From a virus, in IMG/VR virus record IMGVR_UViG_3300042691_009741, positions 1 to 35,034 of that record: 35,034 nt of DNA; one strand, written 5' to 3'. Under the pieces are notes generated by a model that made no database searches, had not been told where the DNA came from, and saw only the letters and a program-made list of their open reading frames with translations. A program made the position numbers and the translations under genes. Numbering within the stretch: position 1 is the first letter of the stretch; each line of letters begins with the position of its first letter. Of this stretch, positions 1 through 25,700 are shown one piece after another.

Positions 1-295
1 CTGTGTCGTCCTTGGCCTGTTCTTTTTGGCGTTGCCTGTCTATTTTTCTTTGCCTGCGTTCGCTGGGTTCCGTGGGCTCGATGCCCAACATGGGATTCCC
101 GTGCATTTTAATTCTTGTGTCTTGTATCTCTCTGCGCCTGTGTTTGATCAGTGGTGAAATGTCGTTGAGAGCCGCACGAGCATCTCTAGCACTTTGAATA
201 TATCCAAAGTTTTCAAATTTCTCGTTGGCTGTACAGTATCTAATAAATGCCTTGACAATTTTGTCATGCAAACTGTCTTCTATTTCGTCACTCAT
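1..295 (-). CDS. Partial small basic/charged protein (C-terminus outside window)
   Basis: An open frame reads leftward from ATG at 295-293 and runs off the window edge after 98 residues. It overlaps the end of gp46 by 8 bases (the gp46 stop TGA is at 290-288), so it is translationally coupled in the gp55-47-46 operon. The visible protein is highly charged. Residues ~16-60 carry a pattern (NEKF... ARDARAAL ... IKHRRREIQ) that resembles short phage proteins often labelled histone H1-like, with a helix-rich 'NEKF-x(n)-A-x-x-AR-x-AL-x-x-x-x-x-LIK-x-R-R-x-EI' arrangement. The tail (residues ~78-98) is rich in K, R, Q, E and D. It is not a sliding clamp (gp45), which often lies nearby in T4-like genomes. 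The existence of the gene is well supported by the overlap and the uninterrupted frame; its function is unknown, and the histone-like resemblance is only a pattern impression. Confidence 0.75.
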   Translation of the reverse strand, partial: MSDEIEDSLHDKIVKAFIRYCTANEKFENFGYIQSARDARAALNDISPLIKHRRREIQDTRIKMHGNPMLGIEPTEPSERRQRKIDRQRQKEQAKDDT

Positions 296-2069
296 GAATT
301 TCTATGTCGTTGCTATAACTGGTAAAACCGTTTTCTTTAATAACTCTTAATACATTGTTTACTCTACCGATCAGTTCATCTCTATGACTGATCAAGTAAA
401 TGTTTTTATGTCTTTCACGACCCATCTTTTTCAATATACCCAGACTGCCTTCAACACCGGCAGCATCCATACCTGAATCAATAAGTTCGTCAATGAACAA
501 CAAGTTGATGTTTTGATACAAACTTTCCCACACGTCACGGAAACTCCATGACAATCCAAGTATTAACCGATTACGTTCGCCGCGACTCAAATTATCAAAG
601 TCTAGATCCTGCCCCAACTGTGTGATCTCAACACTCAAGTCGTTTTGGAATACCACGCTGTGCGGAAGACCCACCTTGTCAAGATAGTAGGTTAATCTGT
701 TGTTGAGATAAGCAAGATTTTGATCAATAATTTTCTTACGAATAAACGAATCTTTGTTGGTCAACAGTTTTAATAAAAATTCTTGATGATCTTTCATCAA
801 GGTCAAACTGTTAACGGAGTCCCACGAAACATCTTGCAGTGCAGTATTTTCTAAATCTTCTATTTGTTCTTGATAGGTATCTAGTTCATTGCGTTTATTT
901 TCTAATTGAGTACCTAGATTTTCTAAATTACTGCGATGATTGTATGCTTCGTCCAATGTGTCATAGAAAGACACTGGTCGTCCGTTGATATCTCCAATAC
1001 CGTCCAGTTCTTTTATTACGACTTCTAATTTTCCAGCAACATCGGACATGTATATATCTGCTTCAAGCAAATTCTTTTCAGCAGACTTGATCATTTCTTC
1101 ATGCTTGTGATCGTGCAGGTCTTGTTCGCAGGCAGGGCATTTGTTGTCTGCTAATTTTGCAATTTCTTTTTCATATTTTTTAACAGTCTTATCTGCCTGC
1201 ATCAGCGCAGTTTCTAGAGTGGCACGTTCTTTGTTAAGACTTTTAATTTTAGCCGCATGATCGTCATAGGTTTTTAAAAGAGCATGTTGATTGATTTCAT
1301 GCTCAATATCTACACCAGCAAGTTCGTCAATGGCTTTTTGAATTTTTGTAATATCTGTTTCTTTATTTTTCTGCCATGCACTTTGCTTTAACTTTAAACT
1401 GTTGATGCTTTCTTGAATTCTGTCATTGCTTTTCTTTACAGCATCAATTTTAGCACTTTCTTGTAGAATGTCGTCTTTGCTAATTCTAATCTGTTCCTTG
1501 AGCATTTCTGCTTTTTCACTGAGTAGAGTAATACCCAACAGTTGTTCAATGATGGCACGTTGGTCATTGGCCTTCATAGAAAGAAACGGTTCAGTGTAGG
1601 TGTTTAACGCAACAATGTGCTTGAACATGTCGTGACTCATGCCAAACAGTTCGTCAATGTCTTTTTGTGTTTCTCTACTGTCGCCTTGTCCTTCATCGTC
1701 AACATCTTGATCGTCGATTACTTGATCATCGATATAAAATTTAAGCACGTTGGGTTTACGCCCACGCTCGATACGATAAAGTTTACCATCTTTTTCAAAC
1801 TCAACAGTGACCAACATGTTTTTACCGTTGATTTTATTGATGAGGTTATCTTTTTTAATGTTTGTAAGTGCTTGTCCAAACAGTGCATAACTTAATGCAT
1901 TGACAATGGTAGTTTTACCAGTGCCATTACGACTTCCGCTGTCATCTCCGCCTTGGTCTAGATTTTCACCTAACACCAATGTCAACTGCTCTGTGCAGAA
2001 ATTAACCGCTTGTGTGGCATTGCCCACACTCATAAAGTTTTTTACAGTTAAATCTTTTAATTTTATCAT
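288..2069 (-). CDS. 46: gp46-like recombination endonuclease subunit (SbcC/Rad50 family ATPase)
   Basis: 593 residues, close to T4 gp46 (560). Known family role: with gp47 it forms an Mre11/Rad50-type nuclease-ATPase that resects DNA ends for recombination-dependent replication and host DNA breakdown. Visible motifs: N-terminal FMSVGNAT segment; Walker A RNGTGKTT at ~47-54, preceded by an acidic/glycine-rich insertion (LDQGGDDSGS, 37-46) absent from T4 gp46; the conserved ALFGQAL and RGRKPNVLKFY segments; a zinc hook CPAC at ~310-313 in the middle of long coiled coils (~170-300 and ~320-420); ABC signature LSRGERNRL at ~493-501; Walker B LLFIDELID at ~523-531; H-loop ISHRDE near 560. Start ATG is 3 bases after the gp47 stop, with no strong Shine-Dalgarno, so translation is probably coupled to gp47. 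Assignment is secure. Confidence 0.95.
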   Translation of the reverse strand: MIKLKDLTVKNFMSVGNATQAVNFCTEQLTLVLGENLDQGGDDSGSRNGTGKTTIVNALSYALFGQALTNIKKDNLINKINGKNMLVTVEFEKDGKLYRIERGRKPNVLKFYIDDQVIDDQDVDDEGQGDSRETQKDIDELFGMSHDMFKHIVALNTYTEPFLSMKANDQRAIIEQLLGITLLSEKAEMLKEQIRISKDDILQESAKIDAVKKSNDRIQESINSLKLKQSAWQKNKETDITKIQKAIDELAGVDIEHEINQHALLKTYDDHAAKIKSLNKERATLETALMQADKTVKKYEKEIAKLADNKCPACEQDLHDHKHEEMIKSAEKNLLEADIYMSDVAGKLEVVIKELDGIGDINGRPVSFYDTLDEAYNHRSNLENLGTQLENKRNELDTYQEQIEDLENTALQDVSWDSVNSLTLMKDHQEFLLKLLTNKDSFIRKKIIDQNLAYLNNRLTYYLDKVGLPHSVVFQNDLSVEITQLGQDLDFDNLSRGERNRLILGLSWSFRDVWESLYQNINLLFIDELIDSGMDAAGVEGSLGILKKMGRERHKNIYLISHRDELIGRVNNVLRVIKENGFTSYSNDIEIHE

Positions 2070-2072
2070 CTG

Positions 2073-3077
2073 TTATAGGTTATTATAGATTGCAAGCAAC
2101 ACTTTGGAGTCGTAGTTGTCGCTTTGAATGTTGGCAATTTGATTGCTGACAATTTGATCCACACTTTCAAAATGTTCAACATCAATGTCGTTGTTGATTT
2201 CTACTTCCTTCTTTTCAGGAATAAGTGTAAGTTCTCGCAGATCGCCGTTTGCTAAAAATGTTTCTTTGATGTAACTGGCTTCTTCGTAACTGATGTCAAT
2301 GTCAATGCCCACTCTTAGATAAGTTTTGCTCTTGATAAGATCATCGCCTTCGTCAATGAGTTGACTCAGTTTGACAGTTTTAAACTTAGGTGCGTCTAGC
2401 CAAATACGATATTCTGGTTTTCCACCGTGCTCTAGTATCATCATGCCTCTGTCATCGTCCCACGCATCTGCATAGTTGTGCGGAAATGCATTGCCAATAT
2501 AGACAATATTTTCTTTGGCCTGTCGCTTGTGAAAGTGGCCTGAGAACACATATTCAGGATTCTTAAAATTACTGGCCTGTAGTTCGCCGTGATCTGGCAT
2601 CTGTACCATGGCGTTCATCATAAACAACGGCAGTTCAAAGTGTCCAAATACATATCGACTCTTTAACTTCTCCATCTTTTTCCATTCTTCGCCTATTAAC
2701 CAAGGCACCATAGTTGTATCTCCTATGGTGGTAATCTCATTTACAATAGTAACTCCGGGAATATGACGTCCCCAGTCCACTGAATGCACATCACGCTTGT
2801 CTTTGTAATACAAGTCGTGATTACCAGGAAAGAAATAGAACTGATCAAAGGCTTTGCCCAGTTTTTCCAATGCTTTAACACTGGAAACCATAGTTAGCAT
2901 GTTGAGACTGTTACGATTATGATGCCAATCGCCTAAGAAGATGCCAGTGTCACAGCCCTCTTTCTTTGCTTCAGCAATAAACCAATCTACAAAGTCTTCG
3001 CAGTCTTGATTATGTGTGGTACTATTTGATTTTAATCCAAAATGGATATCTGTAAAGGCAGCAATTTTTTTAAACAT
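2073..3077 (-). CDS. 47: gp47-like recombination endonuclease subunit (SbcD/Mre11 family nuclease)
   Basis: 334 residues, matching T4 gp47 (339). It is the metal-dependent nuclease partner of gp46. All calcineurin-like phosphoesterase motifs are visible in order: D10-I-H12-F-G, G49-D50-W-H-H, G85-N86-H87-D88, G145-H146-F-E and G180-H181-F-H183, which together supply the two-metal site. The C-terminal ~110 residues (after ~225) form the capping/partner-binding part. A Shine-Dalgarno-like AGGA lies 4-5 bases upstream of ATG at 3077. Gene order gp55-gp47-gp46 with gaps of 35 and 3 bases indicates one transcript. Assignment is secure. Confidence 0.95.
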   Translation of the reverse strand: MFKKIAAFTDIHFGLKSNSTTHNQDCEDFVDWFIAEAKKEGCDTGIFLGDWHHNRNSLNMLTMVSSVKALEKLGKAFDQFYFFPGNHDLYYKDKRDVHSVDWGRHIPGVTIVNEITTIGDTTMVPWLIGEEWKKMEKLKSRYVFGHFELPLFMMNAMVQMPDHGELQASNFKNPEYVFSGHFHKRQAKENIVYIGNAFPHNYADAWDDDRGMMILEHGGKPEYRIWLDAPKFKTVKLSQLIDEGDDLIKSKTYLRVGIDIDISYEEASYIKETFLANGDLRELTLIPEKKEVEINNDIDVEHFESVDQIVSNQIANIQSDNYDSKVLLAIYNNL

Positions 3078-3112: not shown

Positions 3113-3955
3113 TCAATCCTCAGCGGGTGTTTCGACTGAAGTGTCAATTTCTCGTTTCATAGCATTTGAATATTCGTGGTTGACCATTCTAGTGTTGCTA
3201 GGGTTCATACCATTCATTTCGAGGATGTCATCTCTGATGTTTTGCATTTTCTTTTCGATATTGATGACACGCACGAACGAGTTAGTAACCGCGGCGGTAA
3301 AATATGCGAAAGGATTATCACTTTTTGATTCATCGAATTGTAGTCCAATTTGTGTAAGTTGAAGAATTGCCTGACCTTTCATTTCTTCATTGTAAGTGTA
3401 TCCGCGAACGTTGCCCCTGGTAGCATACCGCTCACACAGTTTAATATACATACGAGCCAAGGTGTTGGTGATCTGTCCGTGCTCTTTGCTGAACTTGCCA
3501 GTTTTTACACCACCCGTCCAGTGACTTTTGCCTACACATTCCAAGTTGTCGTTGTCGTCAAACTTCCAATGTTGGAACGCTGGAAAGTTTACCTTGGCCT
3601 TGGCATCAGCCGCACTTTTGACACTCTTTTTTCTTCCTGGTTCATCTGGAATATGCTCGTAGGTCATGATTCTAAAAACTACATCTGTTTTCTCGATCTT
3701 TTTATAATCGACTTCAAACTCTGCAAGTTTGACCTTTGGGTCAACGGCCTTGGCTGCTTCGAAAGCCTGCTGGGCCAGCCGCTTTGCTCGAACACGTTTG
3801 GCCTCTGCCACTGTGCGTATGTTGATTTTTTCAATACTTGGCAAGATCAAATCGTATTGGTGGTATTCTTGTTTGGTAAAACTTGAATACGAATTTTTAC
3901 TTTTGTGTATTTCTGCCAATAAATCTTTGTTGTTTAAGTAGTTAACTTTTTTCAT
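3113..3955 (-). CDS. 55: gp55-like sigma factor for late transcription, with an internal extension
   Basis: 280 residues against 185 in T4. The N-terminus (VNYLNNKDLLAEI, residues 4-16) parallels the T4 gp55 start (YNYVNNKELLQAI). The C-terminal half contains the sigma region-2-like core: ERYATRGN...GYTYNEEM (~177-193), ILQLTQIGLQFDESKSDNPFAYFTAAVTNSFV (~199-230) and INIEKKMQNIRDDI (~232-245). Known role: gp55 binds host RNA polymerase core and, with the sliding clamp and gp33, recognises late promoters (TATAAATA in T4). Between the two conserved parts is about 140 residues, much longer than in T4, with a Lys/Arg/Ala-rich helix (~50-75), and a PDEPGRKKS loop (~103-111) followed by FQHWKFDD (~127-134). 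The gene is divergent from the late operon and has its own sigma70-like promoter. A GAGGAG Shine-Dalgarno (3974-3969) lies 13 bases before the ATG, a long spacing. Identity is confident; the role of the insertion is unknown. Confidence 0.9.
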   Translation of the reverse strand: MKKVNYLNNKDLLAEIHKSKNSYSSFTKQEYHQYDLILPSIEKINIRTVAEAKRVRAKRLAQQAFEAAKAVDPKVKLAEFEVDYKKIEKTDVVFRIMTYEHIPDEPGRKKSVKSAADAKAKVNFPAFQHWKFDDNDNLECVGKSHWTGGVKTGKFSKEHGQITNTLARMYIKLCERYATRGNVRGYTYNEEMKGQAILQLTQIGLQFDESKSDNPFAYFTAAVTNSFVRVINIEKKMQNIRDDILEMNGMNPSNTRMVNHEYSNAMKREIDTSVETPAED

Positions 3956-3980
3956 TTTTATTGTGGAACTCCTCTATGCT

Positions 3981-4009
3981 ATAATAAACTCAGCAGATAA
4001 TAAAGTCAA
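3981..4009 (-). promoter_or_regulatory. Sigma70-type promoter for gp55
   Basis: Read on the minus strand, TTGACT (4009-4004) and TATTAT (3986-3981) are separated by exactly 17 bases; each box matches the sigma70 consensus at 5 of 6 positions. The expected start point, about 3974, lies just before the gp55 ribosome site. This places gp55, and probably gp47 and gp46 behind it, under the unmodified host polymerase, as expected for an early or middle operon. Confidence 0.7.
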
Positions 4010-4015
4010 TAAATA
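4008..4015 (+). promoter_or_regulatory. Candidate late promoter (AATAAATA) for the baseplate operon
   Basis: AATAAATA matches the T4 late -10 consensus TATAAATA at 7 of 8 positions. A start point 6-7 bases further on gives a leader of about 16 bases holding AACGGAG and then ATG at 4038. The box overlaps the -35 box of the divergent gp55 promoter. Confidence 0.55.
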
Positions 4016-4037
4016 TATGTAACGGAGATAGCCAAAC

Positions 4038-4895
4038 ATGACACAGGGTATTAATAAATTTTTAGAAGGCGCTGATAATTTTGGCACCAGTATTGGGGGC
4101 AGTTTTGGCGGCGCCATCAAATCAGGAGTAGGACTTGTACAAGGAGTACGGCAGTTGTTTGGTGCTCCTGGTAGTAATACAGTGTCTCCAGGTGCAGAAG
4201 GTGACGGAGTCTATGGTTCACGTCAAGCCAACTTTGTACAAAGCAACAGTACAGACTGGCGAGTTAGATTAAGTATGCCCCCAATAGATGCTTGGAAATC
4301 GCCGCCTAAAAATGCAATCTTTGGATTTCAAAATCCTATTTTAACTCCGATCGTAAACACCAACGGGTTTATTTTTCCCTATACACCTTCGGTTACCCTA
4401 ACACATTCTGCAAGTTATTCTTCGATGGATCCTATACATAATAATTATCCGTTTTCTGCCTATGAAAACAGTAAACTGGACAAAATTACTATTGTAGGGG
4501 ATTTTTACTGTGAAACTTCTTTTGATGCGGCATACTGGATTGCCGGTGTACATTTTTTTAGAACTATGACTAAAATGTTTTCTGGTGAAGGTCCAAACGC
4601 CGGATCGCCTCCACCCATCATCAAGTTAAACGGATACGGTGATTATGTGTTTAAAAATGTACCTGTGGCAGTTACACAGTTTTCAGTAGAACTGCCTAAA
4701 GATGTTGATTATATTCCTAGCGGTTTTTTAGCACCTAGTGAAATAGACGCCAGTGCAAAAGGTACTGGCTATGTGCCTGTAAAAAGTGTTTTTACGGTGA
4801 CGTTGTTGCCTATGTACAGTAGAGAATCCGTTAGAAAGTTTAATCTAAATGATTTTGCCACAGGAAAATTAATCAATGGAAAAGGATTTATCTAA
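4038..4895 (+). CDS. Baseplate tail-tube initiator/cap protein (gp54/gp48-like)
   Basis: 285 residues. The N-terminal ~65 residues are Gly/Ala-rich and likely flexible or membrane-like helical (GGSFGGAIKSGVGLVQGV). The body begins at DWRVRLSMPP (~72-81) and contains the segment FIFPYTPSVTLTHSASYSSMDPIHNNYPF (~111-139) and HFFRTMTKMFSG (~174-185), then PPPIIKLNGYGDYVFKN and VELPKDVDYIPSG. This pattern is typical of the marine T4-like proteins annotated as baseplate tail-tube cap (gp48) or initiator (gp54); those two T4 proteins are related to each other and I cannot decide between them by reading. Known role of both: they sit on the baseplate hub and nucleate tail-tube assembly. It is the first gene of the plus-strand late operon, with GGAG 10 bases upstream, and its TAA stop overlaps the next ATG (TAATG). 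Confidence 0.75.
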   Translation: MTQGINKFLEGADNFGTSIGGSFGGAIKSGVGLVQGVRQLFGAPGSNTVSPGAEGDGVYGSRQANFVQSNSTDWRVRLSMPPIDAWKSPPKNAIFGFQNPILTPIVNTNGFIFPYTPSVTLTHSASYSSMDPIHNNYPFSAYENSKLDKITIVGDFYCETSFDAAYWIAGVHFFRTMTKMFSGEGPNAGSPPPIIKLNGYGDYVFKNVPVAVTQFSVELPKDVDYIPSGFLAPSEIDASAKGTGYVPVKSVFTVTLLPMYSRESVRKFNLNDFATGKLINGKGFI

Positions 4896-5197
4896 TGTCT
4901 GTACAATACCCTAACACTAGTCCATGGGCTAGGACTAATCTAAGTTCAGGTTTATTGGGATATTTTAATATCAGATCTGTAGCCGCACAGGATGATGATA
5001 TTCTTTATGTGATTGAACCACAGTTTAATTACAGACCGGATCTATTGGCCAATTATCTCTACGGTACTCCAAAGTTATGGTGGGTATTTGCACAACGCAA
5101 CATGGACGAAATTAGAGATCCTATTTTTGATTTTAGATCAGGTGTAGAAATATTTCTTCCTAAAAAAAGCGGATTGTTTAAATTGTTAGGGTTATAA
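4895..5197 (+). CDS. 53: gp53-like baseplate wedge protein (LysM-like fold)
   Basis: 100 residues, starting inside the previous stop codon (TAATG, one-base overlap), with AAAGGAT 7 bases upstream. The central part (IEPQFNYRPDLLANYLYGTPKLWWVFAQRN, residues ~45-74) is the hallmark of the gp53/LysM-like wedge family: a short beta-alpha-alpha-beta unit with the YGTPKLWWV helix, followed by IFDFRSGVEIFLP (~81-93). T4 gp53 is longer (196), but short versions are usual in marine relatives. Known role: links neighbouring wedges and the hub when the baseplate closes into a ring. The position between the tube initiator and the hub gene fits. Confidence 0.8.
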   Translation: MSVQYPNTSPWARTNLSSGLLGYFNIRSVAAQDDDILYVIEPQFNYRPDLLANYLYGTPKLWWVFAQRNMDEIRDPIFDFRSGVEIFLPKKSGLFKLLGL

Positions 5198-8464: not shown

Positions 8465-9835
8465 ATGGGCGTACCTGAAAGATCATCCGAAAAACAACAC
8501 AAATTTAGTGGAGGTCCTTATCTTGCAAGAGTTGTAAGCAATGTGGATCCCAAGTACATGGGAACACTACATGTACAATTATTACGTGAAGTGGGTAACA
8601 GTTATAATCGTCAAGGTCAAACGATACCTGTGAAATATCTAAGTCCTTTCTACGGGGTTACAAATGCAGACAGCACTGATAAAAATAATAATTTTAACGG
8701 AACACAAAAAAGTTACGGGTTTTGGGCAGTGCCTCCAGACGTAGGCTGTACAGTACTGTGTGTGTTTGTTGAAGGCGACATTAAGCAAGGATTTTGGATA
8801 GGTTGTGTGCAAGATGAATTCATGAACTTCATGGTTCCAGGATTAGCCGCAACAGAAATACACAATGATCCTGGCGGCAAAGGTAAGAAAGTAGTTGCAG
8901 AGTGGAATAAAAAAACAAATGACACTGTGCAAACAGACACAACACTAATTAAAAAACCAGTACATCCTTTTAACTCAGTGTTGGGACAACAAGGGTTAGC
9001 CACAGACGAAACAAGAGGACTTACTACCTCTAGTGCTCGCAGAGACATGCCCAGCATGGTGTTTGGTATTAGTACGCCCGGACCAGTTGATAGACGTAGC
9101 GGTGCAAAAACAGGATCCATCGGCCATTACGAAAGCAAAGTATCGGGCGCATTTGTAAGCAGATTAGGTGGTTCTACGTTTGTCATGGATGATGGTGATC
9201 CAACATTGTTGCGTAAAACTCCAGCCAGTGAAGGTCCTCCAGAATATGTCAACGTTGAACTGTCAAAAGACGGAGATCCAACATTACCTCACAATGAGTT
9301 AGTAAGGATTCGTACTAGAACAGGCCATCAAATTCTACTGCACAACACCGAGGATTTAATCTACATTGGCAATGCCAAAGGCACCACATGGATAGAATTG
9401 ACCAGCAATGGTAAATTAGATATCTATGCCGCAGACAGTGTCAGTATACATACAAAAAATGACTTAAACATCACTGCTGATAGAGATATCAATATGAGTG
9501 CTGGTGGCAAAGTTAACATTTTATCTGGAGACAACATGCATTTAGATAGCGGTGCAGCCATGGAAATTGTCAGTGGAGCAGACACACTGATTACAACCAG
9601 CGGAGCAACAAATATCAACAGCGGAGGAAACCATTTAGAAACAGCCGCACAGATTCATATGAACGGTCCTGCAGCCGCAACAGCCGGCGCAGGCAATAAG
9701 CCAGGCAGAGTACCACAAGCAGAACCCTGGAGTGGTCACGAAAATTTAAATCCTAAAGGACACACCCCTGATGCAAAACCCACAGATGGCAAGTTATCAT
9801 CAACACCTGATACATTTAGGAAAATTGGAAAATAA
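8465..9835 (+). CDS. 5: gp5-like baseplate spike protein (OB-fold plus beta-helix, no lysozyme domain)
   Basis: 456 residues with AAGGA 8 bases upstream. Residues ~15-135 form the gp5/VgrG OB-fold: YLARVVSNVDPKYMGTLHVQL, then PVKYLSPFYGV, YGFWAVPPDVGCTVLCVFVEGD and KQGFWIGCVQDEF. A middle linker carries conserved SKVSGAFVSRLGGSTFVMDDGD (~222-243). From ~270 a short beta region (VRIRTRTGHQILLHNTEDLIYIGNAKGTTWIEL) leads into a repetitive C-terminal beta-helix (~318-400: IYAADSVSIHTKNDLNIT..DINMSAGGKVNILSG..MHLDSGAAMEIVSGADTLITTSGATNINSGG), the membrane-piercing needle. T4 gp5 (575 residues) has a lysozyme domain between these two parts; none is seen here. It lies directly after the hub gene, in the order of its physical partner. 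The C-terminal ~55 residues are Pro/Gly/Lys-rich. Confidence 0.9.
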   Translation: MGVPERSSEKQHKFSGGPYLARVVSNVDPKYMGTLHVQLLREVGNSYNRQGQTIPVKYLSPFYGVTNADSTDKNNNFNGTQKSYGFWAVPPDVGCTVLCVFVEGDIKQGFWIGCVQDEFMNFMVPGLAATEIHNDPGGKGKKVVAEWNKKTNDTVQTDTTLIKKPVHPFNSVLGQQGLATDETRGLTTSSARRDMPSMVFGISTPGPVDRRSGAKTGSIGHYESKVSGAFVSRLGGSTFVMDDGDPTLLRKTPASEGPPEYVNVELSKDGDPTLPHNELVRIRTRTGHQILLHNTEDLIYIGNAKGTTWIELTSNGKLDIYAADSVSIHTKNDLNITADRDINMSAGGKVNILSGDNMHLDSGAAMEIVSGADTLITTSGATNINSGGNHLETAAQIHMNGPAAATAGAGNKPGRVPQAEPWSGHENLNPKGHTPDAKPTDGKLSSTPDTFRKIGK

Positions 9836-9838
9836 ATA
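9831..9838 (+). promoter_or_regulatory. Candidate late promoter box (AATAAATA) before gp25
   Basis: The box overlaps the gp5 stop codon and ends only 5 bases before the gp25 ATG at 9844. If used, the transcript would start at or near the ATG. Because the TAA stop supplies part of the motif, chance occurrence is more likely here than at the other sites. Confidence 0.3.
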
Positions 9839-9843
9839 CTGTT

Positions 9844-10278
9844 ATGAATATCGAAAAAAATCTTGTTTCTAGAATTAGTGTTCCGTCTGCTAGAAAAACC
9901 AGTATTGTATCTAGCCGTACCTACAGGGGAATCAGTACAGTTGCAGATTCTGGCACGTTTCCTTTGTATGATATTTCATTGATAAAACAAGATATTACCA
10001 ATCACTTTCACATTCGAAAAGGCGAAAAATTAGAAAATCCAGATTTTGGAACAATTATCTGGGATGTTTTATTTGAACCATTGACCGACGAAGTAAGAGA
10101 TTTAATTATAGAAGATGTAACGTCTATCATTAACTACGATCCCCGTGTTCGAGTAGTAGATATCACAGTAAGTGAGTATGAAAGCGGCCTACAAATAGAA
10201 TGCGATCTAACTTATCTGCCCTATAACATATCAGAAAGTCTACGTTTTAGATTCGACGAAGCCAACAGTATTCTATAA
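9844..10278 (+). CDS. 25: gp25-like baseplate wedge protein
   Basis: 144 residues (T4 gp25 is 132). Residues ~40-140 show the gp25/GPW family pattern: PLYDISLIKQDITNHFHIRKGEKLENPDFGT, IIWDVLFEPLTDEV, DLIIEDVTSIINYDPRVRV and the closing beta strands LQIECDLTYLPYNISESLRFRF. The family is a core piece of all contractile injection machines; in T4 it forms the wedge core with gp6 and gp53 and starts sheath assembly. The N-terminal ~35 residues are Ser/Arg-rich. No convincing Shine-Dalgarno precedes the ATG (nearest GGA is 14 bases away), so initiation may be leaderless or coupled to gp5. Gene order gp25-gp6 is conserved in T4-like phages. Confidence 0.9.
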   Translation: MNIEKNLVSRISVPSARKTSIVSSRTYRGISTVADSGTFPLYDISLIKQDITNHFHIRKGEKLENPDFGTIIWDVLFEPLTDEVRDLIIEDVTSIINYDPRVRVVDITVSEYESGLQIECDLTYLPYNISESLRFRFDEANSIL

Positions 10279-13300: not shown

Positions 13301-13787
13301 AACACTGCAAAAAGTTAAAGCGATCAGTGATGAAGTTATATACCATCCTGTGAAATATAAAGAAATATTTGGCCCAACTGCACCTACAAGTCTACAAGCA
13401 ACATTTAAAATAGTTAAAAATAATAATGTATCAGTCAGTGACAGCGATATCAAATCTTCAGTGACAAATGCAATAAACGAATTTTTTGCAATTGAAAATT
13501 GGGAATTTGGAGACACATTCTTCTTTGCTGAGTTGACAACTTATATAATGAATAGAGTTGCTCCAAATATCAGCAATATAATAATTGTTCCTAAAGACCC
13601 AAGTTTAAGTTTTGGTAGTCTGTATGAAATTAAATCTAACTCTGATGAAATCTTTATCAGTTCAGCAACAGTTAACGATATTGAAATTATCAGCGAAATA
13701 ACAGCATCGAGAATACGAGCCAACGGCACAGTGACAACAACACTGAATAATAATACTGGTATACAGAGTTCAAATTATGGCATTTAA
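10329..13787 (+). CDS. 6: gp6-like baseplate wedge protein, enlarged
   Basis: 1152 residues against 660 in T4. The N-terminus (DFDNLRRTMIAYLRENYPEDFNDYIESSEYLALIDLIAFLGQNLAFRFDLNARDNFL, ~32-88) is the conserved gp6 helical start, followed by RRESVLRLARLLSYNPKRNIPANG (~93-116). VRLAFADGVFGDLPQGSFKAYYRISNG (~337-363) and APGTYYTQNRMITGEDYNILP (~420-440) are typical of gp6/baseplate-J relatives. The C-terminus (~1030-1100: SDIKSSVTNAINEFFAIENWEFGDTFFFAELTTYIMNRVAPNI) is the wedge dimerisation-type end. An EF-hand-like loop D821-K-D-E-D-G-V-I-D-D-P-E832 lies in a segment not seen in T4. Known role: gp6 forms the inner baseplate ring with gp25 and gp53. Its end overlaps the next gene by 11 bases, implying coupled translation. 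Confidence 0.9.
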   Translation: MGSIDRQNRLIAAEDWTKIYQSFRNADFQSYDFDNLRRTMIAYLRENYPEDFNDYIESSEYLALIDLIAFLGQNLAFRFDLNARDNFLELAERRESVLRLARLLSYNPKRNIPANGLLKFSALSTTEEIIDSNGRNLSGQTVLWNDPSNANWYEQFIKIINSSMNEIIQFGRPQDKKVIGGVATEQYRINGLNTEIPVYSFTKNIDGRTMDFDVVSTVFKDSDSIYEEAPLPGNNLAFLYRDDGGGPASSNTGFFLHFRQGTLEEGNFVVDRPTPNEVVDLDSSGINNTDIWLYGTNTLGVESVLWTQVESIVGNNIIYNSTQRNSRKLYSVQTRSNDRVRLAFADGVFGDLPQGSFKAYYRISNGLAYKISPGNIKSVTIDIPYLNRNGKAETLSIVLSLKYTVTNASSQESTDSIKQNAPGTYYTQNRMITGEDYNILPLSVSQEILKVKSVNRSSSGISRYFDLKDVTGKYSSTNLFGTDGIIYKENFTETFNFSFATKSEIESVVVNQIIPVLKKKTVYDFYLDNFSSINLGVPFIAWNRITKATNLSTGFFSNNTTGESRTVGAFTSSNLRYAVNDSLLKFVPPPGFRAFDSKNNFIANSAPVVPGEKPYIWTKVVNITGSGVFGATNTLPNGDGPIKLNELIPSAAELQNIIPKFVREISDSVRNRIFDLIFAQKEFALRYDAVDTAWKIITESNVDKLSNFSLGKTGDISNQRLDASWLILFETDGETYTVTNRSTRYVFESIKEVRFFFDSGDKIYDTNTGKIVKDKISVLSINTKPLDVYPLNRNYDWEILDEFKGADGYIDSKKISVTFTDKDEDGVIDDPEIFERIVETSVEPTKKLIFQQRRTGLDGVTDYFYIANDDDLILTYNTQTEIDTSVLGGIAEGQLVYCLDDKLVKRFIRTGQPQFQVTNEYRGFFGRGDIKFQYVHSADSSARLDPSATNIMDVYVLTKAYDTEYRRWVKQESLAKPLPPSSDALFINFGTTLQKVKAISDEVIYHPVKYKEIFGPTAPTSLQATFKIVKNNNVSVSDSDIKSSVTNAINEFFAIENWEFGDTFFFAELTTYIMNRVAPNISNIIIVPKDPSLSFGSLYEIKSNSDEIFISSATVNDIEIISEITASRIRANGTVTTTLNNNTGIQSSNYGI

Positions 13788-16700
13788 TAACGATCAAATT
13801 GACCCAATTTTACCGATTGCAAATGACGGTGAAAAAACTTCACTGAGTTTTGTACCTAAATATTTTAGAACTAGTTCTAATCGAAAATTTTTAAGTGCCA
13901 CCATCGATCAGATGATGTCTGAGGGTGAAGTAGAAAAAATAAATGCCTTCATAGGTAGAAAAACTTTCGAGCCGTATCGCGTTTCTGACAAATACCTACA
14001 AGGTGCTACAAAACAGCGAGAAGATTATCAATTTGAACCAGCAGTAATTATAAAAGATTCACTGGATAATGTTACATTCTTTAAAGATTATCCAGACTAT
14101 ATTAATCAGTTAGCAAGTTTTAACAGCGGTGACACTGATCATAATAAAATTAACAGTCAAGAATTTTATTCTTGGGATCCGCATTTTGACTGGGATAAAT
14201 TTGTCAACTACCGAGATTACTATTGGTTGCCACTAGGCCCTGTTAGCGTTCCTATCTCTGGACAATCAGATAACATTACCAGCACATATACTATTAAACT
14301 TGTTGACGATGGCGATAACCGTGCATATGTGTTTACCCCAGATGGACTAACAAGTAACCCTAATTTAAAATTATACAGAGGACAAACCTATAATTTTCAA
14401 GTGGACTGTCCAGATTTTGGAATTGCATTTAAAACTGTAAGAGAAACAGGCGACAGTAATTTTTATACACAAGGTGTTAGTACTGGAAATCAATATATTG
14501 AAAGTGGCAGTATTGAGTTTACTGTGCCTACTGATGCACCTAATATCATTTACTATGTTAGTAAAACTGATGTAAACACTGGTGGTATCTTTAAAATTTA
14601 TGACGTAACTGATGCATCGAGTATTGATGTTGAAAAAGAAGTACTCGGCAAGCAATCATATCGATCATCGAATGAAGTAGAATTGTCCAACGGCATGAAA
14701 GTATTTTTTCAAGGAAGAGTAACACCAGAAAAATATTCTTCAGGAAACTGGTACGTTGAAGGTGTCGGCACTGCAATCAAGTTGGTCAAAGAATCAGATC
14801 TAGCAACACCGTCTACATATTCGACAAGTACTAGCATTGAATTTGACAACGAGCCTTTTGATAGCCAAGGATTTGAAGTATCGGGCAATCTTCCAAGCAG
14901 TAAAGATTATATTTTAATTAATAGATCTAGTAAAGATTTAAATCCGTGGAGTAGATTCAATCGATGGTTCCACAAAGATGTCATAGAAGCATCATCTCAA
15001 ATCAACAATATACCAGCAATACTTGACCAGTCACAACGTGCCACTCGTCCTATTATTGAATTTGAAGCAGATTTAAAATTATGGAATTTTGGTCGTCAAT
15101 TTAAAACTAATGTGACATTGGTCGATTCTTTCACTAGAGATGTTTTCAGCACAATTGAAGGAAGTGTAGGCTACAACATTGACGGAGTTGATTTGTTGGA
15201 AGGCATGCGTGTATTGTTTACCGCAGATCCTGATGTACAGGTTAATGGTAGAATTTTTAAAGTTAAATTTATAACACATCTTGCTGTTAAAAGATTAACG
15301 TTGGTAGAAGAAGTTGACACCAATCCAATAGAAGGTGAAACAGTATTAGTGCTAGACGGTGTAATAAACAAAGGTAAAATGTTTTACTATACCGGAAATA
15401 TATGGAAAGAAGCACAGCAAAAAAATTCAGTGAATCAATCACCTTTATTTGATGTATTTGACGAAACTGGTATTAGTTACGGCGACAATGTAGTTTATCC
15501 AGGTACTACTTTTGCGGGTACACGAATTTTTGGATACCGCCCTGGCAGTAATATTGACAGTGAATTAAATTTTGGAATTGCTTATAAAAATATAGGCAAT
15601 ATCGGTGACATATTATTTGACTTTAATTTACAAAAAGATTCTTTTATCTATAAGAACATTGCAGACATTGTAACAATTACTCTTGATAAAGGTTATTTGA
15701 AAAAGTCAGTAGATTTGACAAATGTTTCATTTGTCAACGGATGGGTCAAGGCAATCGCTGACAGTCGACAATATGTTGTTCAACAGTTTGATGGCTCAGA
15801 CAGAATAAACTATTTCCCTATAGATGTCTATGATCAAAGCGGACTGCTGACTGATCTAGAAACACGAGTTTATATCAACGGTAAAATTATCAGTGACCCA
15901 CTAGATTATGTTATTGAAATTATAAACGATGTTGCGTTTGTCAATTTACGCAAAGATTTATTGCCTACAGAAAGTGTCGTAGTTAAGAGCACAAGTTCTG
16001 CTAAAAAAAATAACAATGGATATTATGAAATTCCCAGCAATTTAGAAAGTAATCCTAGCAATTTAGTTATTGGTGATTGCACACTGGGAGAAGTAATTAA
16101 TCATTTAAAAACCATAGGCAATTCTAGACTAGATTTCAACGGTGATATTCCTGGTACAGGAAATTTACGAGACCTATCTAACTTATCAGCATATGGTACA
16201 AAGATAATTCAGCACAGCGGTCCTTTGACACCGGTTATCTATCATTTTACAAACAAAGATCATAACATAGTAAATGCTCTACGATATTCAAAAGATGAAT
16301 ACAGCAAGTTTAAGCGAAATTTCTTGCGTGTGGCCAGCACACTTGGATTTGATGGCATTACCAGAGTACATTTGGATTTAGTGTTAAAAGAATTAGTCAA
16401 AGACAAGACTAAAACCATGCCGTTTTTCTTCACAGATATGGCGCCGTTTGGTGGAAGTGTGATATTTGATCAAGAAGTCATAGACAATTCTATAACAGAA
16501 TATCCATTGATTTTTGACTTTGACTTGAACACGTTGTCTGACAAAGCAGTTATAGTATATCTAAATGAAGAACAACTATTACATGGCCGTGACTATGAGT
16601 TCTTTAATACAAACTTTATTCGTATTTTAAAACCAATCGTTGCTGAAGATGACCTTAAAGTGGTCCAGTATGAAAACACCAATGGTTGTTATATTCCTGC

Positions 16701-19700
16701 AACACCAACAAAATTAGGACTATACCCGTTATATGAACCTAAACTGTATCTCGATGATACACTAGTAACACCACAGAATGTTATTCAAGGACACGACGGT
16801 AGTATTCTTTTAGCCTACAACGATTATCGAGATGATTTAATTTTAGAATTAGAAAAAAGAATCTACAATAACGTCAAAATAAAATACAATACAGAACTGT
16901 TTGACATTTCTAATTTTGTCAGCGGATACTATAGAAAGAATGATTTAACTAAAAAACAGTTAGATGATACTATTCGTCAAGACTTCTTAAAATGGAGTAG
17001 ATTCATTTCTGAAGATTATACCAAGCATACATTTTTTGACTCCAATAATAGTTTTACATATAACTATAAAAACTTTTCTGGCAACGATGGATCAGAAATT
17101 CCAGGACATTGGAGAGGCGTTTACAAATACATGTATGACACTGATCGTCCACATTCTCATCCTTGGGAAATATTAGGATATAGTCAGCAGCCAGAATGGT
17201 GGACAGATGTCTACGGTCCTGCACCATATACACGTGATAATCTTGTGCTATGGAATGATATAGCCGAAGGCATCATTAGAGAACCAAATAAACTAGTAAC
17301 ACGAAATGCTAAATTTGCAAGACCGTCGATTGTAAATCATATTCCAGTGGATGAAGAAGGTACTTTATTATCTCCATTAGAGTCTGTTGCTGTTAAAGAT
17401 TATGTTTTTTATCTTGCCGAAGGTGCATTTAGTTTTGGCGATTCTGCACCAATAGAAAATGCATGGAGACGTAGCAGTGATTATCCTTTTAGTTTAATTA
17501 CAGGTATCACAATACTTCGTCCTGCAAAATCATTTGCAACAATATATGACAGAGCCAGACAGATTAGAGACTTCACAGGACAACTAGTCTATAAAACCAG
17601 CAATGGTCTAACCCGATTCACTCAAAGAAATTTAGAATTTCCTAATTCTGTATCTGCTACTTCTAGGATCTTTACCAGCGGCCTAGTTAATTTTATCAGT
17701 GAATATTCGACATCTAAGAGTCAAGATAATTTTGAAACCTATAAAGAAAATTTAACCAATCTTCAAGTTAAATTGTCTACAAAGATAGGTGGGTTTATCA
17801 CTAAAGAAAAGTTTAAATTGGTATTAGATAGTCGTAGTCCGCTGAATCAAAAAAATATTTTTGTTCCTTTTGAAAACTATAATATTATTTTAAACACAAG
17901 CACACCAGTATCAACTATTAATTATAGTGGTGTGATTATTGAAAAACAACCTAAAAACTTTATTGTTAAGGGGTACAATCTAGCACTACCAGAATTTAAA
18001 TATTTCAAACATATTGAAATAGTAAGTGATCCAGTATCTATCATAGGCGGAATCAGTGAAAGTTTTGTGGAATGGGACAGAGAAAAGTTTTATAATAAAA
18101 CTGAAATTGTTCGATATGACAATAACTATTATAGAGTAACAGCAAGCCATACCAGCACTAATACTTTCGAAATAAAATATTTTGTTAAGTTGCCTAGCCT
18201 GCCAATTACAGGTGGCCGAGAAATAATTTCAAGAAGTACATTTGAAACTACAGAATCCACACTGCACTATGGCTCAGAACTTAAAACAGTGCAGAACGTA
18301 GTTGATTTCCTTGCAGGATACGGCAAATGGTTAACTGCACAAGGATTTAATTTTGATTTTTTCAACACCGAACTTTCAACAGTAACTGATTGGAATACTG
18401 CAATCAAAGAGTTTGCATTCTGGACCACTCAGAACTGGAGTGCAGGCTCAGTTATCAGTTTAAGCCCAGGCGCAGACGAAATTAAATTTACTGCCGATTC
18501 AGCAATAGTTGACAACATCAATGACAGTTTTTATGAATACAGCGTTTACAAGCAAGACGGTATTATTCTTGATCCATCTTTTATAAACACTGTACGTAAA
18601 GATAATAACTTTACAATACGACCAAGAAATACTGCTGACGGAATTTACCACGTCACTTTAAACTTAGTTCAAAAAGAACACGTTGTTTTATTAGACGACG
18701 TCACAGTGTTCAACGATGTAATATATGATCAAGTACAAGGGTACCGTCAAGAGCGTATTAAAGTAATTGGTTACAGAACCGGCGGCTGGCTAGGTAGTTT
18801 TAGCATTCCAGGATTTATCTACGACAATGCAGTTGTCACCGAGTGGACACAATGGAAAGACTATGCGCTAAGTGACACTGTCAAGTATAAAGAATTTTAT
18901 TATAGTGCTAGACAAAATGTAGCAGGCTCTGAAGAATTTGATCCGACAAACTGGAATAGACTGTTATCCAAGCCCGAGAGTAAACTAATCCCTAACTGGG
19001 ATTATAAAGCAAATCAATTTTTTGATTTTTATGATCTTGACACTGATAGTTTTGACGTTGACCAACAAACTATTGCAAAACACTTAATCGGATACCAACG
19101 TAGAGATTATTTAGAAAACATTATCAACGATGATGTTGCACAATACAAATTTTATCAAGGAATGATCCGCGATAAAGGAACTCAAAACGTACTAAACAAA
19201 TTATTTGATCCACTGAGTTCAGCAGATAAAGATAGTTTAGAATTTTATGAAGAGTGGGCAATTCGTCTTGGCACATACGGAGCAATATCTGCATTTGAGG
19301 AAGTAGAATACAAAATTGACGAATCAAAAATGTTGATTAACCCTCAGCCTTTTGAATTAGTAGATAGTGTTGATAATTCGTTCAATGACTTTGTCTATAG
19401 AATTACACCTAATCAAGTATATGTACCTAGTGAAAATTATAATCATGCACCATTCCCAAGTCATATTCCAACAGAATACTTTGTTGATACTCCGGGATAC
19501 GTTCGCAGAGAAGATGTAGATTTTGTCTTTAATAGCAAAGATGAAATCTCTGCGTTGGAATTTTCGCAGTTATCAGAAGGTACACGTCTATGGATCGGCA
19601 ATGACAAAAATACTTGGGGAGTTTATAGATTCACAGCCGTTTCTGCACGAGTATCTACTGTTGTTCTTTCAGACGAAACAATTCGTATTACATTTTCTAG

Positions 19701-22700
19701 CAACAAAGACACTGACCTATTAGTTGATGACTATATTGGAATTGATGCAACATCGCCAATAGACGGCCTTTATAAAATTACCAATGCTGGATATAATTTT
19801 ATTGAAATAAATGCCGGCGACATTACAGAAGACGATTTGTTGTTGGCCACAGTAGAGAACGCATTCATAATCTATAAATTTAGTTCTTTAAGACTTAAAG
19901 AGCGTTTAGTCAACGGGCAAACACTGCCAGCATCCATTGACAGATTAGACGAAATTGAACTTCCTGTAAAAGAAAACGGCGATCTAGTATGGATTGATGG
20001 AGTAGATAACAACTGGAGTGTATGGTTGTATGAAAACAATTATGCTATAAAACCAGTAACTGACGAAACAGATAATTTTGCAAGTACTGTTGCCGTTGAT
20101 AAAAATGAAACTGTAATGGCTGTCAGGGCCGGCACGGAAACTGATGATCAAGTATTATACTTTACTAGACCCGCTTCCACATTTAATTGGGCGTTTGCAG
20201 AATCTATTAATGCAGGTGCTACATCTCTATTGAATACAAATGGTTCTTTTGGTCAAGCATTAGCATTGTCATCAGATGGTGTCTTATTAGCAGTAGGAGT
20301 TCCTGCATCGAATACTAATCGCGGACACGTTTCATTGTTTACAAAAAATTCTGCAAATATTTTTCAATTCACGAAGAATCTTTTACCAGGCACACGTCGA
20401 GTAGATGAATTGTTTGGTGCAGAATTAGCGTTTACTAACAATAATTTAGTAGTAGTTTCTAAAGGAACTGCTGGTGCGGTATCTCCTGCAATTTTCCTTT
20501 ATGATTTAGAAGGTAATGAATTGGATACAGTAACTAGTTTTAGTTCATTATTTGAAATTACAGATATTTCTGTAGGAAATAATTTGCTGGTCGTTTCATT
20601 TGCAAATGAAACAGTTAACGTCTACGATGTATCCAGCAATGAATTAGACTTAATCGATACTGTTACGTTTGGAGATTTAGTTCCTAATACAAATATTAGT
20701 ATTTCCACAGGCTCTAATTTTGCAGAATCAGTGGCAATTACCCAAGACGGCAAATACCTTGCAGTCGGAGCCCCGGATTATACAGGTCTAAATTCACAGC
20801 AAGGGTGTGTTGTACTGTTTGAATTAATCAACGAACAGTATGTTGCACAATACATTATCGAAGGTCCGGGCGACATTTCGGCAGGAAGATTCGGATCAAA
20901 GGTTAAATTTAATCTACAAGGTGATCAACTAGTTGTATATGCTTCGGGAATTAAACACGATACAAGTACAACATTTGATAATACTACCACAGTCTTCGAT
21001 AAACGAAAAACTCGATTTGTAGATTTGGAACCAGGCTATGGCTCTGTTTCTATGTTTGACAAATACGATACAAGATTTGTGTTTGCTGAAACTTTAGAAC
21101 TCGACAATGCTCTCGGCATACGCTATGGAAATTCTTTAAATTTCCGCAAGTCAGTGTACATAGGGGATCCTGCAAAGTCTCGTGGGGCAGTATACGAATT
21201 CACAAGCCCAACTAAGAGTTGGAGAAAATATCAAACTCCTAGCCCGGCTGTGGATGTTAATAAAATTAAATCCATCTTCTTATATGACACCGACACTAGC
21301 AAGATTTTACAATATCTAGATTTTGTTGATCCTTTACAGGGAAAAATACTAGGACTAGCAGAACAAGAATTAAGTTATAAAACTTATTATGATCCTGCAA
21401 CATATATCATCGGTACAGAAAATATAAATGTAGATCAACTTACTGGATGGAACGGAAAACAAGTTGGAAAGTTATGGTGGGATCTTGCCGGTTCTAAATT
21501 CATTAATACCTATCAAGGCAGTGTAGTCTTTAAATCCAATAACTGGAATAATAGATTCAACGACACTGATGTTGTAGTATGGGAGTGGGTCAGTTCAATT
21601 TATACACCTAGTGTATGGGATAGTCTTGCAGACACAGAAGAAGGTCTAGCACTGGGCATCAGCGGCACAAGTAAATATGGCGACCTTGCATATTCTGTGA
21701 CACAGCAATTCGATGCTATATCTGAATCTATCTCAACAACATATTATTTCTGGGTAAAAAATAAAAAAACTGTTCCCCCTGTTGAAGGAAGAAACTTCTC
21801 AGCACAGGATGTTGCCGCATATATTGCTGATCCTAAGAGTAAAGGCATCAAGTACATTACATTACACGGACCACGACAGTTCAGTCTAGTCAATTGCAAA
21901 GACTTGATCACAGATAAAAAAGTTGCAATTAACTTTAGATACTGGACCATAGACAACACAGAATTGAATATACATAGTCATTATCAATTACTAGCCGAAG
22001 GCGACGAAACAAAACAATTAAACAAATACATTGAAAAGAAATGGTTAGAAAGTTTAATTGGGTTCGACGAGTTAGGTAATGAAGTACCAGATCCTAAATT
22101 ACCGTTAAAACTTAAATACGGAATTTTAAACAAGCCTAGACAAAGCATGTTTGTTAATCGTATTGAAGCATTAAAACAATTCTTTGAACGTGTAAACCGT
22201 ACTCTTATCAAAACTAACATCGTCGACGATGTAGATCTGTCTAAATTATACGAAAAAGATCAAGAGCCATCTGTATATTCTTTAAAATATGATGCTGTAA
22301 AAGATCTATATTCTGAATTAAGATTTATCAACGTTGCTCCAAGCCGAACAGCCATACTTGATCCTGTAATTGAAAACGGTAGAATAATTCGAGTTAACAT
22401 TATAGATTCAGGTCGAAACTATAATGATTTAAGTTACGACAGCAGTCAAGGTCGTCCGAAAAAAGGACCATATGTAAACATATCCGGCATTGGTACTGGT
22501 GCAAAACTCAGCACAATTGTCAATGATAAAGGCGAAATTATTAAAGTTGCCGTTGAAAATACAGGCAGTGGATACCAAGAATCTACAACATTGACTGTAC
22601 GTCCATTCACAGCATTAGTAAGAACAGATGAAAACTCAGGCGGCAAATGGGCATTATATATCTGGGACGCAGATAACAAAATCTGGATTAAGAATCTAGT

Positions 22701-25700
22701 TCAGACCTACGATGTTGCCAAGTACTGGTCTTTGACAGATTGGTATGCAGATGGTTATAATCAGTTTACAAAAATTAGTATAGTTATTGATTTTTCTTAT
22801 CAGTTGGCAGGACTAACTGCTGACATCGGTGATATAATTAAAATTAAAAACGTAGGATCATCAGGCTGGTTATTACTAGAAAAAAATACCGACAGTACAA
22901 ATTTATTAGATATTAATTCAAGTTTCAAAGTTATAGGTAGACAAAACGGAACATTGCAATTTAATAAAAATATCTACGAATTTGCAAACAGCAATGTTGG
23001 ATTCGATGGACCATTCTACGACATTGATGTATTCGATGACGAGCCTAAAGAAGAACTACGTATTATTGTTGATGTATTAAAGAACAATATATTTGTTGAT
23101 CAACTAACACAAGAGTACAATGCACTATTCTTTGCAAGTTTACGATACGTATTCTCAGAACAGATTTTTGTGGATTGGGCATTTAAAACTAGTTTTATTA
23201 AATCCAAACATAATCTTGGAGAATTAAAACAAAAAGTTACCTATCAAAACGATAATTTAGATAGTTATGAAGACTACATTAATGAAGTCAAACCTTATAG
23301 AACTAAAATTAGAGAGTTTGTCAGCGCCTACGATAAAACTGAGCAGTCTCGTACTCAAGTTTCAGACTTCGACTTACCGTCGATCTATAATCCAGATACT
23401 GGAAAGATAGAAGCAATTACTACACAGATTGATAACAATGTAATTATTGTTGATAACAATATAATTCTTACAGAACCTTATAGCGACTGGTATTACAATC
23501 TAGGACACTCTATCAAATCTATAGAAGTACGTAATCCAGGTAGCGGATATAAAACTGCACCTCAAGTTATAATTAGTGGAATTAGTACTATTCAGGCAAC
23601 TGCTACGGCTTATATAAGCCAAGGCAAACTTATTAAAATTGTAGTAGATGAGCCTGGACAGGGTTATTTAACAACACCAACAGTTGAACTTGATGGCGGC
23701 TTAGAGCCAGATGGCATACCTGCACAAATAAGTATTGAACTTGCAAGAGGACTTGTTAGATCTAACAAAGTTGGAATAAAATTTGATAGAGTATCTCCAA
23801 GATATCAAATTTCATCGCTGGATGCTACACAACAATTTACAGGATCGGGATCGCAAACTCGATTTGATTTAAAATGGCCTGCGGATATTCGTCCTAACAC
23901 CTACGTTGTTTCTATCAATGGACTAGATATCTTAGACAGCGACTTTACAATAACAAATGTAAAAGACCTTACCTCAGATTATACTAGATATTTTTCTAGA
24001 ATCACATTTGATACTGCTCCGTCGAATCAAAGTACTATTATAGTTTCCTATAAAAAGGACACCAGTTTATTAACAGCCGCTGATAGAATACAATTCTTCT
24101 ATGATCCAGCAAGCGGACAACTAGGCAAAGATCTTGGTCAATTAATGCAAGGTGTTGACTATGGTGGTGTAGAAATATCAGGATTGAATTTTGACATTGG
24201 ATCTGGTTGGGACGCACTACCGTGGTTCGTCGGTGGGTGGGACAGTTTTGACACTGAATTTAAAGATAGATTATTTGTTGGTACAAATAGAAACTTAGAC
24301 ATTGGATATATTCCTGACGACGGAGTAGAAATCAACGTCTACTTAAACAACGTAAAGATTGATGATTCTAACTACGATCAAGTTACTCTAGCACAAGATA
24401 TTGTTACACAAGAACAAACAACACTTGATGTTTTAGATAATGAACTACAAGACTTGGTACAAATTCGTGCTGATAAAAATGCACTAAGACAGGCTGCTGT
24501 TGACACAGTTGTACTAGAACAAAATGAGTTAGATTCTCTGACCGCTCAGTACAACCAAGCATTGTTAGATAATAACATAGTACTGGCCATGCAGATTCAA
24601 GCCCAGGTTGTTATTCAAGCGAACGTAGTTCTTGCGGCAAACAGTGCATTATCTACAGCAATTGTTCAGTACAATGTATCGGTGACCGCAGTTAATAACA
24701 AACAAGCGCAAGTAGCCCAACAACAAACTATTCTAAACTCAGCACTATCTGCGCTGAACAGTTTGGATCCAATCACCAACACCAATGCTGTGATGAATAG
24801 TTTGTACGGTGATGCCAGCACACAAGTTTTTGTATTACCTAACAATGTTCTACTAACATCGAGCGATAAAATTGTTTTACGTGAAAGCACCAGCGACGGC
24901 AGTGTTAAACCAGACAATCAAACATTTGACGTTGATATAACCGGTGGCGATCTTGCTTATACAAGTGCTCGCGGTATTAATCCAGAAGCAATTAATATCG
25001 ACGGCGATGCATTTGTATCTTCTTGGTCTAGTCATGCACCAGAAGAAGTGGTGCCAGGGCAAATAGTTGACAGTGTTGACATTCAAGTGTACAACAAAGT
25101 CAGTGACGGTGCTCCAACTATTCTAAATAAATTTTACAAAGTTAAATCAACGTCAGACATTACCTTTGATATAGGTCAACGTCCAGGAACTGTGGATTCG
25201 TTAATAGTTAAAATAGATAATAATATTGCAAGACTATTAACTGATTACGTTGTAGATTATAAAGATCAGCAAATACGATTAATAACTGCTCCTGTAGTTG
25301 GTACTGAAATTTCTATAACCAGTTTGAGTCAAAACGGCTCAGGCATTTTAGATTTAGATTTCTTTATTGCAGACGGAGTAACTACAGATTATGTCACAGC
25401 CGCTAGATCGGATGAGGCATACACAGCCTTTGTTACCATAGATGGTGTTACTGAATCTGTAACAACTTTCAATGCTGACGAAACATTTGATACACAGGGC
25501 AATATTGTAATTAGATTTTCAAATGCACCTGAGTCAGGATCAATTATTAATTATACATTGATCAGAGGTTTCGTCAATACAATTAGCAAAGTGCAAAAAG
25601 AAACAATCTTTCATGACGGTACAACTGCTACATACACATTAGAATATACTCCGGCTATAAGAAAGCCTTTAGAAAGCAATGTCATTGTTATTGTTGATGG

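Follow-up and report, generated by a model that had tools for sequence, protein, structure and literature searches.

The gp55 locus and its divergent spacer

The stretch of DNA analysed here, which we call the window, is a virus record of 35,034 bases (IMGVR_UViG_3300042691_009741). Near its start, an 82-base spacer (3956-4037) separates two divergent transcription units and is flanked by two ATG codons, one opening a gp55-type sigma factor gene and the other a virion/baseplate operon. The genes and elements of the locus, with the E-values of their matches, are:

288..2069, minus strand: gp46/SbcC-like subunit, gp55 operon (PHROG 77, 5e-103)
2073..3077, minus strand: gp47/SbcD-like nuclease subunit, gp55 operon (PHROG 100, 7.8e-62)
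3113..3955, minus strand: gp55-type late sigma factor, 280 aa (PHROG 12791, 5.5e-76; PHROG 234, late sigma, 1.4e-25)
3981..3986, minus strand: -10 element TATTAT, from the sequence (TATAAT in most relatives)
3991..4001, minus strand: TGC-type core, conserved between the -35 and -10 elements, from anchored consensus sequences
4004..4009, minus strand: -35 element TTGACT, from the sequence (in the 44 unique spacers almost always TTGAC(A/T), with a single TTGATT)
4008-4015, plus strand: late box AATAAATA, with the conserved core ATAAATA at 4009-4015 and a predicted start at ~4021
4038..4895, plus strand: virion structural protein, gene 1 of the late operon (PHROG 12050, 5.4e-47)
4895..5197, plus strand: gp53-like baseplate wedge protein (PHROG 7145, 3.2e-23; PF11246, 6e-4)

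These PHROG matches agree with the identities that a sequence-only reading of the window had given to gp55 and the late operon. The sigma region 2 part of gp55 is homologous to PHROG 12791 and, over aa 151-270, to PHROG 234, and tblastn searches matched PA5oct, 121Q, Atu_ph07 and others. On the minus strand, gp55 is the first gene and is followed by gp47/SbcD and then gp46/SbcC. On the other side, the product of 4038..4895 is 41% identical to PA5oct YP_010678867.1, which is annotated as a virion protein by ESI-MS/MS, and the gp53-like product and its positional counterpart in PA5oct share 51% identity along 68 aa.

The window gp55 carries an N-terminal extension of ~150 aa ahead of the part matched by PHROG 234, and its start, YLNN.DLL, is common to 121Q gp55. 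It ends in ...EIDTSVETPAED, where a hydrophobic end is not evident by eye; the clamp contact could be elsewhere. Further along, 13777-27561 encodes a virion protein of 4594 aa (PHROG 10938) with a single TIG domain near the C-terminus.

The late box

The window contains ATAAATA six times, always on the plus strand, and five of the six copies lie immediately 5' of a gene. No other 7-mer is as strongly enriched in the 45 nt ahead of ORFs in six related phage records, where 45/68, 44/72, 24/32, 18/26, 16/26 and 9/13 of its copies lie at most 45 nt upstream of an ORF; for the first of these counts, 1.8 copies were expected. A rarer variant, CTAAATA, also precedes late genes, for example a tail-sheath-like gene (gene names read by eye), and is the late box of Aeh1 (PMC1524935). 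A TATAAATA-like box is thus enriched upstream of late genes, as in T4-type late promoters, and judged by this enrichment the late box of the window is real.

At 9832-9844, a late box ends 5 nt 5' of the ATG of a gp25-like baseplate gene, for which a leaderless late transcript is predicted.

The gp55 promoter

Facing the late box, the gp55 promoter matches the sigma-70 consensus TTGACA-N17-TATAAT at 10 of 12 positions, with 17 bases between its -35 and -10 elements. In the window alone such a match is unremarkable, since a 20-kb scan found 79 promoter-like sites where 68.5 were expected; what makes the promoter credible is its conservation. The relatives have TTGAC(A/T)-N17-TAT(A/T)AT, reaching 12/12 in many of them, and the 17-bp distance is constant throughout the 44 unique spacers. 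The TGC-type core at 3991..4001 sits where a sister clade, described below, has the TGTGC of an extended -10 element, with which it may be homologous. A dyad operator, AACT-N4-AGTT, which appeared in the promoter spacer of some relatives, was discarded, as its arms, judged by eye, are not kept together.

Read on the minus strand, the late box appears as TATTTA beside the -35 element, and it might be part of the gp55 promoter, as an upstream activator or UP-like site, instead of an opposite-strand late box. Throughout the window-type clade, TATTTA does adjoin the -35 of gp55. However, the same promoter class occurs at many other genes of these genomes without a directly adjoining TATTTA, for which reason we also rejected the idea that it is an upstream element common to early promoters. 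ATAAATA is moreover a genome-wide motif ahead of late genes, precedes a virion gene by 16-25 nt in the window clade and is retained by the sister clade after loss of the consensus -35. We therefore regard this explanation as extremely improbable.

Conservation of the arrangement

The coordinates that the sequence-only reading had given for the minus-strand -35 and -10 elements and the plus-strand box hold base for base. The two shared bases that it noted, 4008-4009, are found when the full AATAAATA is considered, and only 4009 is shared with the 7-mer ATAAATA. It had also proposed conservation in related phages as a check, and the overlap passes it strongly. From a sample of 80 loci chosen by gp55 similarity, the window-type clade yielded 44 unique spacers, and in all 44 the gap between the 7-mer box core and the oppositely oriented -35 is 0 or -1 bp, so that the two promoters form an overlapping divergent pair. 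These spacers are 72-84 bp long, with 16-25 from box to late ATG and 17-26 from -10 to gp55 ATG. On a gp55 tree, the arrangement requires only six state changes among ~62 scored rows.

In scans of IMG/VR, which are samples of partly redundant contigs, a composite of box and promoter with the 17-bp spacer had gp55 downstream in 98 of the 120 matches listed, and about six more of these 120 were followed by a truncated gp55. With a composite one base shorter, gp55 followed in 51 of the 119 matches listed, and with a composition-matched control carrying a rearranged hexamer in 3 of the 120 listed. Records having the composite with 0-1 nt contain one copy per genome, at gp55. In two gp55 samples taken together, [AC]TAAATA is found on the late strand in 106 of the 107 unique divergent spacers; the exception, locus L069, has none in its spacer. 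The divergent gene order is kept in PA5oct, MIJ3, 121Q, Kae01, XbC2, RaK2, BF, CBB, Munch and others. A search for further relatives with Atu_ph07 gp55 as query returned only its own record.

Elements, gene identities, overlap and conservation can all be read from the sequences, and by this evidence the promoter pair at gp55 is a real, strongly conserved, back-to-back pair of an early and a late promoter. Both promoters proposed by the sequence-only reading are thereby borne out as sequence elements, the late box by enrichment and the gp55 promoter by conservation.

Other geometries in relatives

In the sister clade, most of the 54 unique spacers sampled contain TATTTATT followed at a fixed distance by TGTGCTATTAT. 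Their gp55 promoter is of the extended -10 type, with the late box placed directly on the -35 position. In spacers of the 121Q, Kae01, XbC2, RaK2, BF and CBB types, a poor or TGGAACG-type -35 lies 2-6 bp from the box and the leaders are longer; this spacing is the one seen in enterobacterial jumbo phages. In 121Q-type spacers, which measure 103-131 bp, the box keeps this distance and the extra length lies in the leaders. PA5oct and MIJ3 preserve the gene order and lack the overlap, their box being ~22 bp from the -35. Atu_ph07 has an exact TATTTAGTTGACA, and its best-scoring -35/-10 pair is elsewhere. Four sister-clade spacers (L467, L468, L474, L485) have a late box facing gp55, just past the gp55 -10, which suggests late auto-activation.

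Predicted occupancy of the spacer by two polymerases

A polymerase footprint covers ~60-70 bp. Placing the late start by the T4 rule, with the box at -13 to -6 (PMC1524935), and the gp55 start ~7 bp past the -10, we infer promoter activity at two starts ~47 bp apart. At this distance both holoenzymes would need largely the same DNA, so that their mutual exclusion on the spacer is very likely. The sequence-only reading had proposed that polymerase carrying gp55 at the late promoter would cover the -35 box of gp55, the two elements sharing two bases. The need for overlapping DNA stands, and the shared bases prove too narrow as a mechanism: exclusion follows from the ~47 bp between the predicted starts, and it should be just as effective where the box is 2-6 bp away (121Q and CBB types) or sits on the -35 (sister clade). 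That two bases are shared is incidental, and exclusion is expected across most of the geometries observed.

In the mechanism that we propose, host sigma-70 RNA polymerase would start gp55-gp47-gp46 leftward at ~3974, and RNA polymerase carrying gp55 would start the baseplate operon rightward from AATAAATA at ~4021. Early in infection, the gp55 promoter alone would be in use. As gp55 builds up, late complexes would fill the spacer and gp55 transcription would fall, the sliding clamp lying upstream, as it does in T4, and covering the gp55 -10 and start. T4 late promoters have no -35, and the clamp lengthens their footprint by 13 bp upstream (PMC2988020). The outcome of this occupancy would be negative autoregulation of gp55 and a sharper handover from early to late expression, a reading of the back-to-back pair that we consider evenly poised between right and wrong.

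The opposite interference is also conceivable, with sigma-70 polymerase at the gp55 promoter silencing the late operon until sigma-70 initiation drops. A gp55 promoter that equals the consensus in many relatives would fit it, as would the weak binding of T4 late closed complexes without the clamp (PMC2988020), but early in infection there is no gp55 and the late promoter is off regardless, which makes this explanation unlikely.

The serious rival is compaction, in which both promoters are genuine and divergent, a minimal spacer brings them together and their exclusion has no selected regulatory role. Window-type spacers, with the distances given above, have almost no room to spare, and similar junctions exist at two other early genes (below). 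More widely, most relatives have spacers of ~62-95 bp, about the minimum for two promoters and two leaders, so that compaction alone could give abutment. Against this, 5' leaders are longer in the 121Q and CBB types, yet their box stays 2-6 bp away from the -35, which argues against packing alone, and the sister clade overlaps through a different geometry. We give compaction appreciably less than an even chance.

For negative feedback of gp55 on its own gene count the validation of the late box, the gene identities, the conserved divergent order and the occurrence of the composite before gp55. The close contact of box and -35 in all 44 window-type spacers, with few state changes on the tree, counts for it too, as do the other sigma-70 promoters without an adjoining TATTTA, the sister-clade geometry, the spacing in the 121Q and CBB types and the two T4 features named above. 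Besides the short spacers, the absence of overlap in PA5oct and MIJ3 and the composites at two non-sigma early genes count against it, as do the four sister-clade boxes that face gp55, which would feed forward instead. Sigma-70 promoters may also be silenced late by other means, which would make the feedback redundant. Weighing these points, we find the feedback plausible, at about an even chance, and the one-way switch put forward by the sequence-only reading may exist as well.

More broadly, the sigma factor could repress its own gene through occupancy of a divergent promoter, with the late promoter ahead of the baseplate genes as the operator: a cis-encoded homeostat that needs no repressor and has persisted through changes of promoter geometry among jumbo T4-like phages. 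We advance this wider reading tentatively and rate it slightly below an even chance. As a simple circuit that lends itself to testing, the gp55 arrangement bears on the early-to-late handover in widespread and abundant uncultivated jumbo T4-like phages and in laboratory relatives such as the 121Q-type coliphages, where promoter exclusion might by itself limit gp55 production.

Comparison with known systems

Like the T4 late promoter (TATAAATA, served by gp55, gp33 and gp45), the window has an 8-bp box in the -10 position without a -35, a gp55-type sigma factor and structural genes downstream. It differs from T4 in the long N-terminal extension of its gp55 and in that its box adjoins the promoter of the sigma gene itself. 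Dependence on gp33 and the clamp, a feature of T4, is putative here. The first base of the box is variable in other T4-like phages as well (PMC1524935), and the CTAAATA variant corresponds to that of Aeh1. The cyanophages S-PM2 and P-SSM2 likewise have gp55 followed by gp47 and gp46, but there gp55 is co-directional with its upstream gene and has no divergent late operon.

In jumbo phage CBB, according to part of the published report, ATAAATA occurs at 35 sites before structural genes and gp55 is under a middle-like promoter (PMC5259590). CBB shares the divergent gene order of the window, whereas its -35 is of the TGAAACG type instead of TTGACA, with the box ~4 bp away. The overlap at gp55 is not remarked on in that part of the report (PMC5259590). 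We found no account of a divergent promoter overlap at gp55 in the literature searched, nor any of the means by which T4-like phages restrict the amount of their late sigma factor.

Overlapping divergent promoters are already known as a kind, and the gp55 case is apparently undescribed in the papers searched. At lambda PR/PRM, the promoters overlap divergently and polymerase binding is mutually exclusive. The pair at gp55 resembles it in having opposite promoters too close for simultaneous occupancy and differs in that the competing polymerases carry different sigma factors, one of which is encoded by one of the genes.

Similar arrangements at other genes

Two further divergent junctions, whose early genes encode no sigma factor, carry the TATTTATTGAC composite as well (L361, L365, L381, L401, L314; L335, L363, L366, L405). 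The partners, named by eye from the sequence, are exonuclease-like/SGNH-like and UvdE-like/SGNH-like genes. The composite is therefore not specific to an autoregulatory loop. At the SGNH-like junctions the late box is only ~5 nt ahead of the ATG, which suggests leaderless late mRNA.

A late box that seemed embedded in the promoter of a PHROG 12062 gene (clamp-like by our reading only) was rejected, its positions being inconsistent. In five genomes, a GTP cyclohydrolase I gene (PF01227; L138:13535-14281, minus strand, and equivalents in G002, G003, G005 and G006) has a conserved CCTAAATA within the -35/-10 spacer of a sigma-70 promoter, in the same direction, possibly forming a combined early and late promoter.
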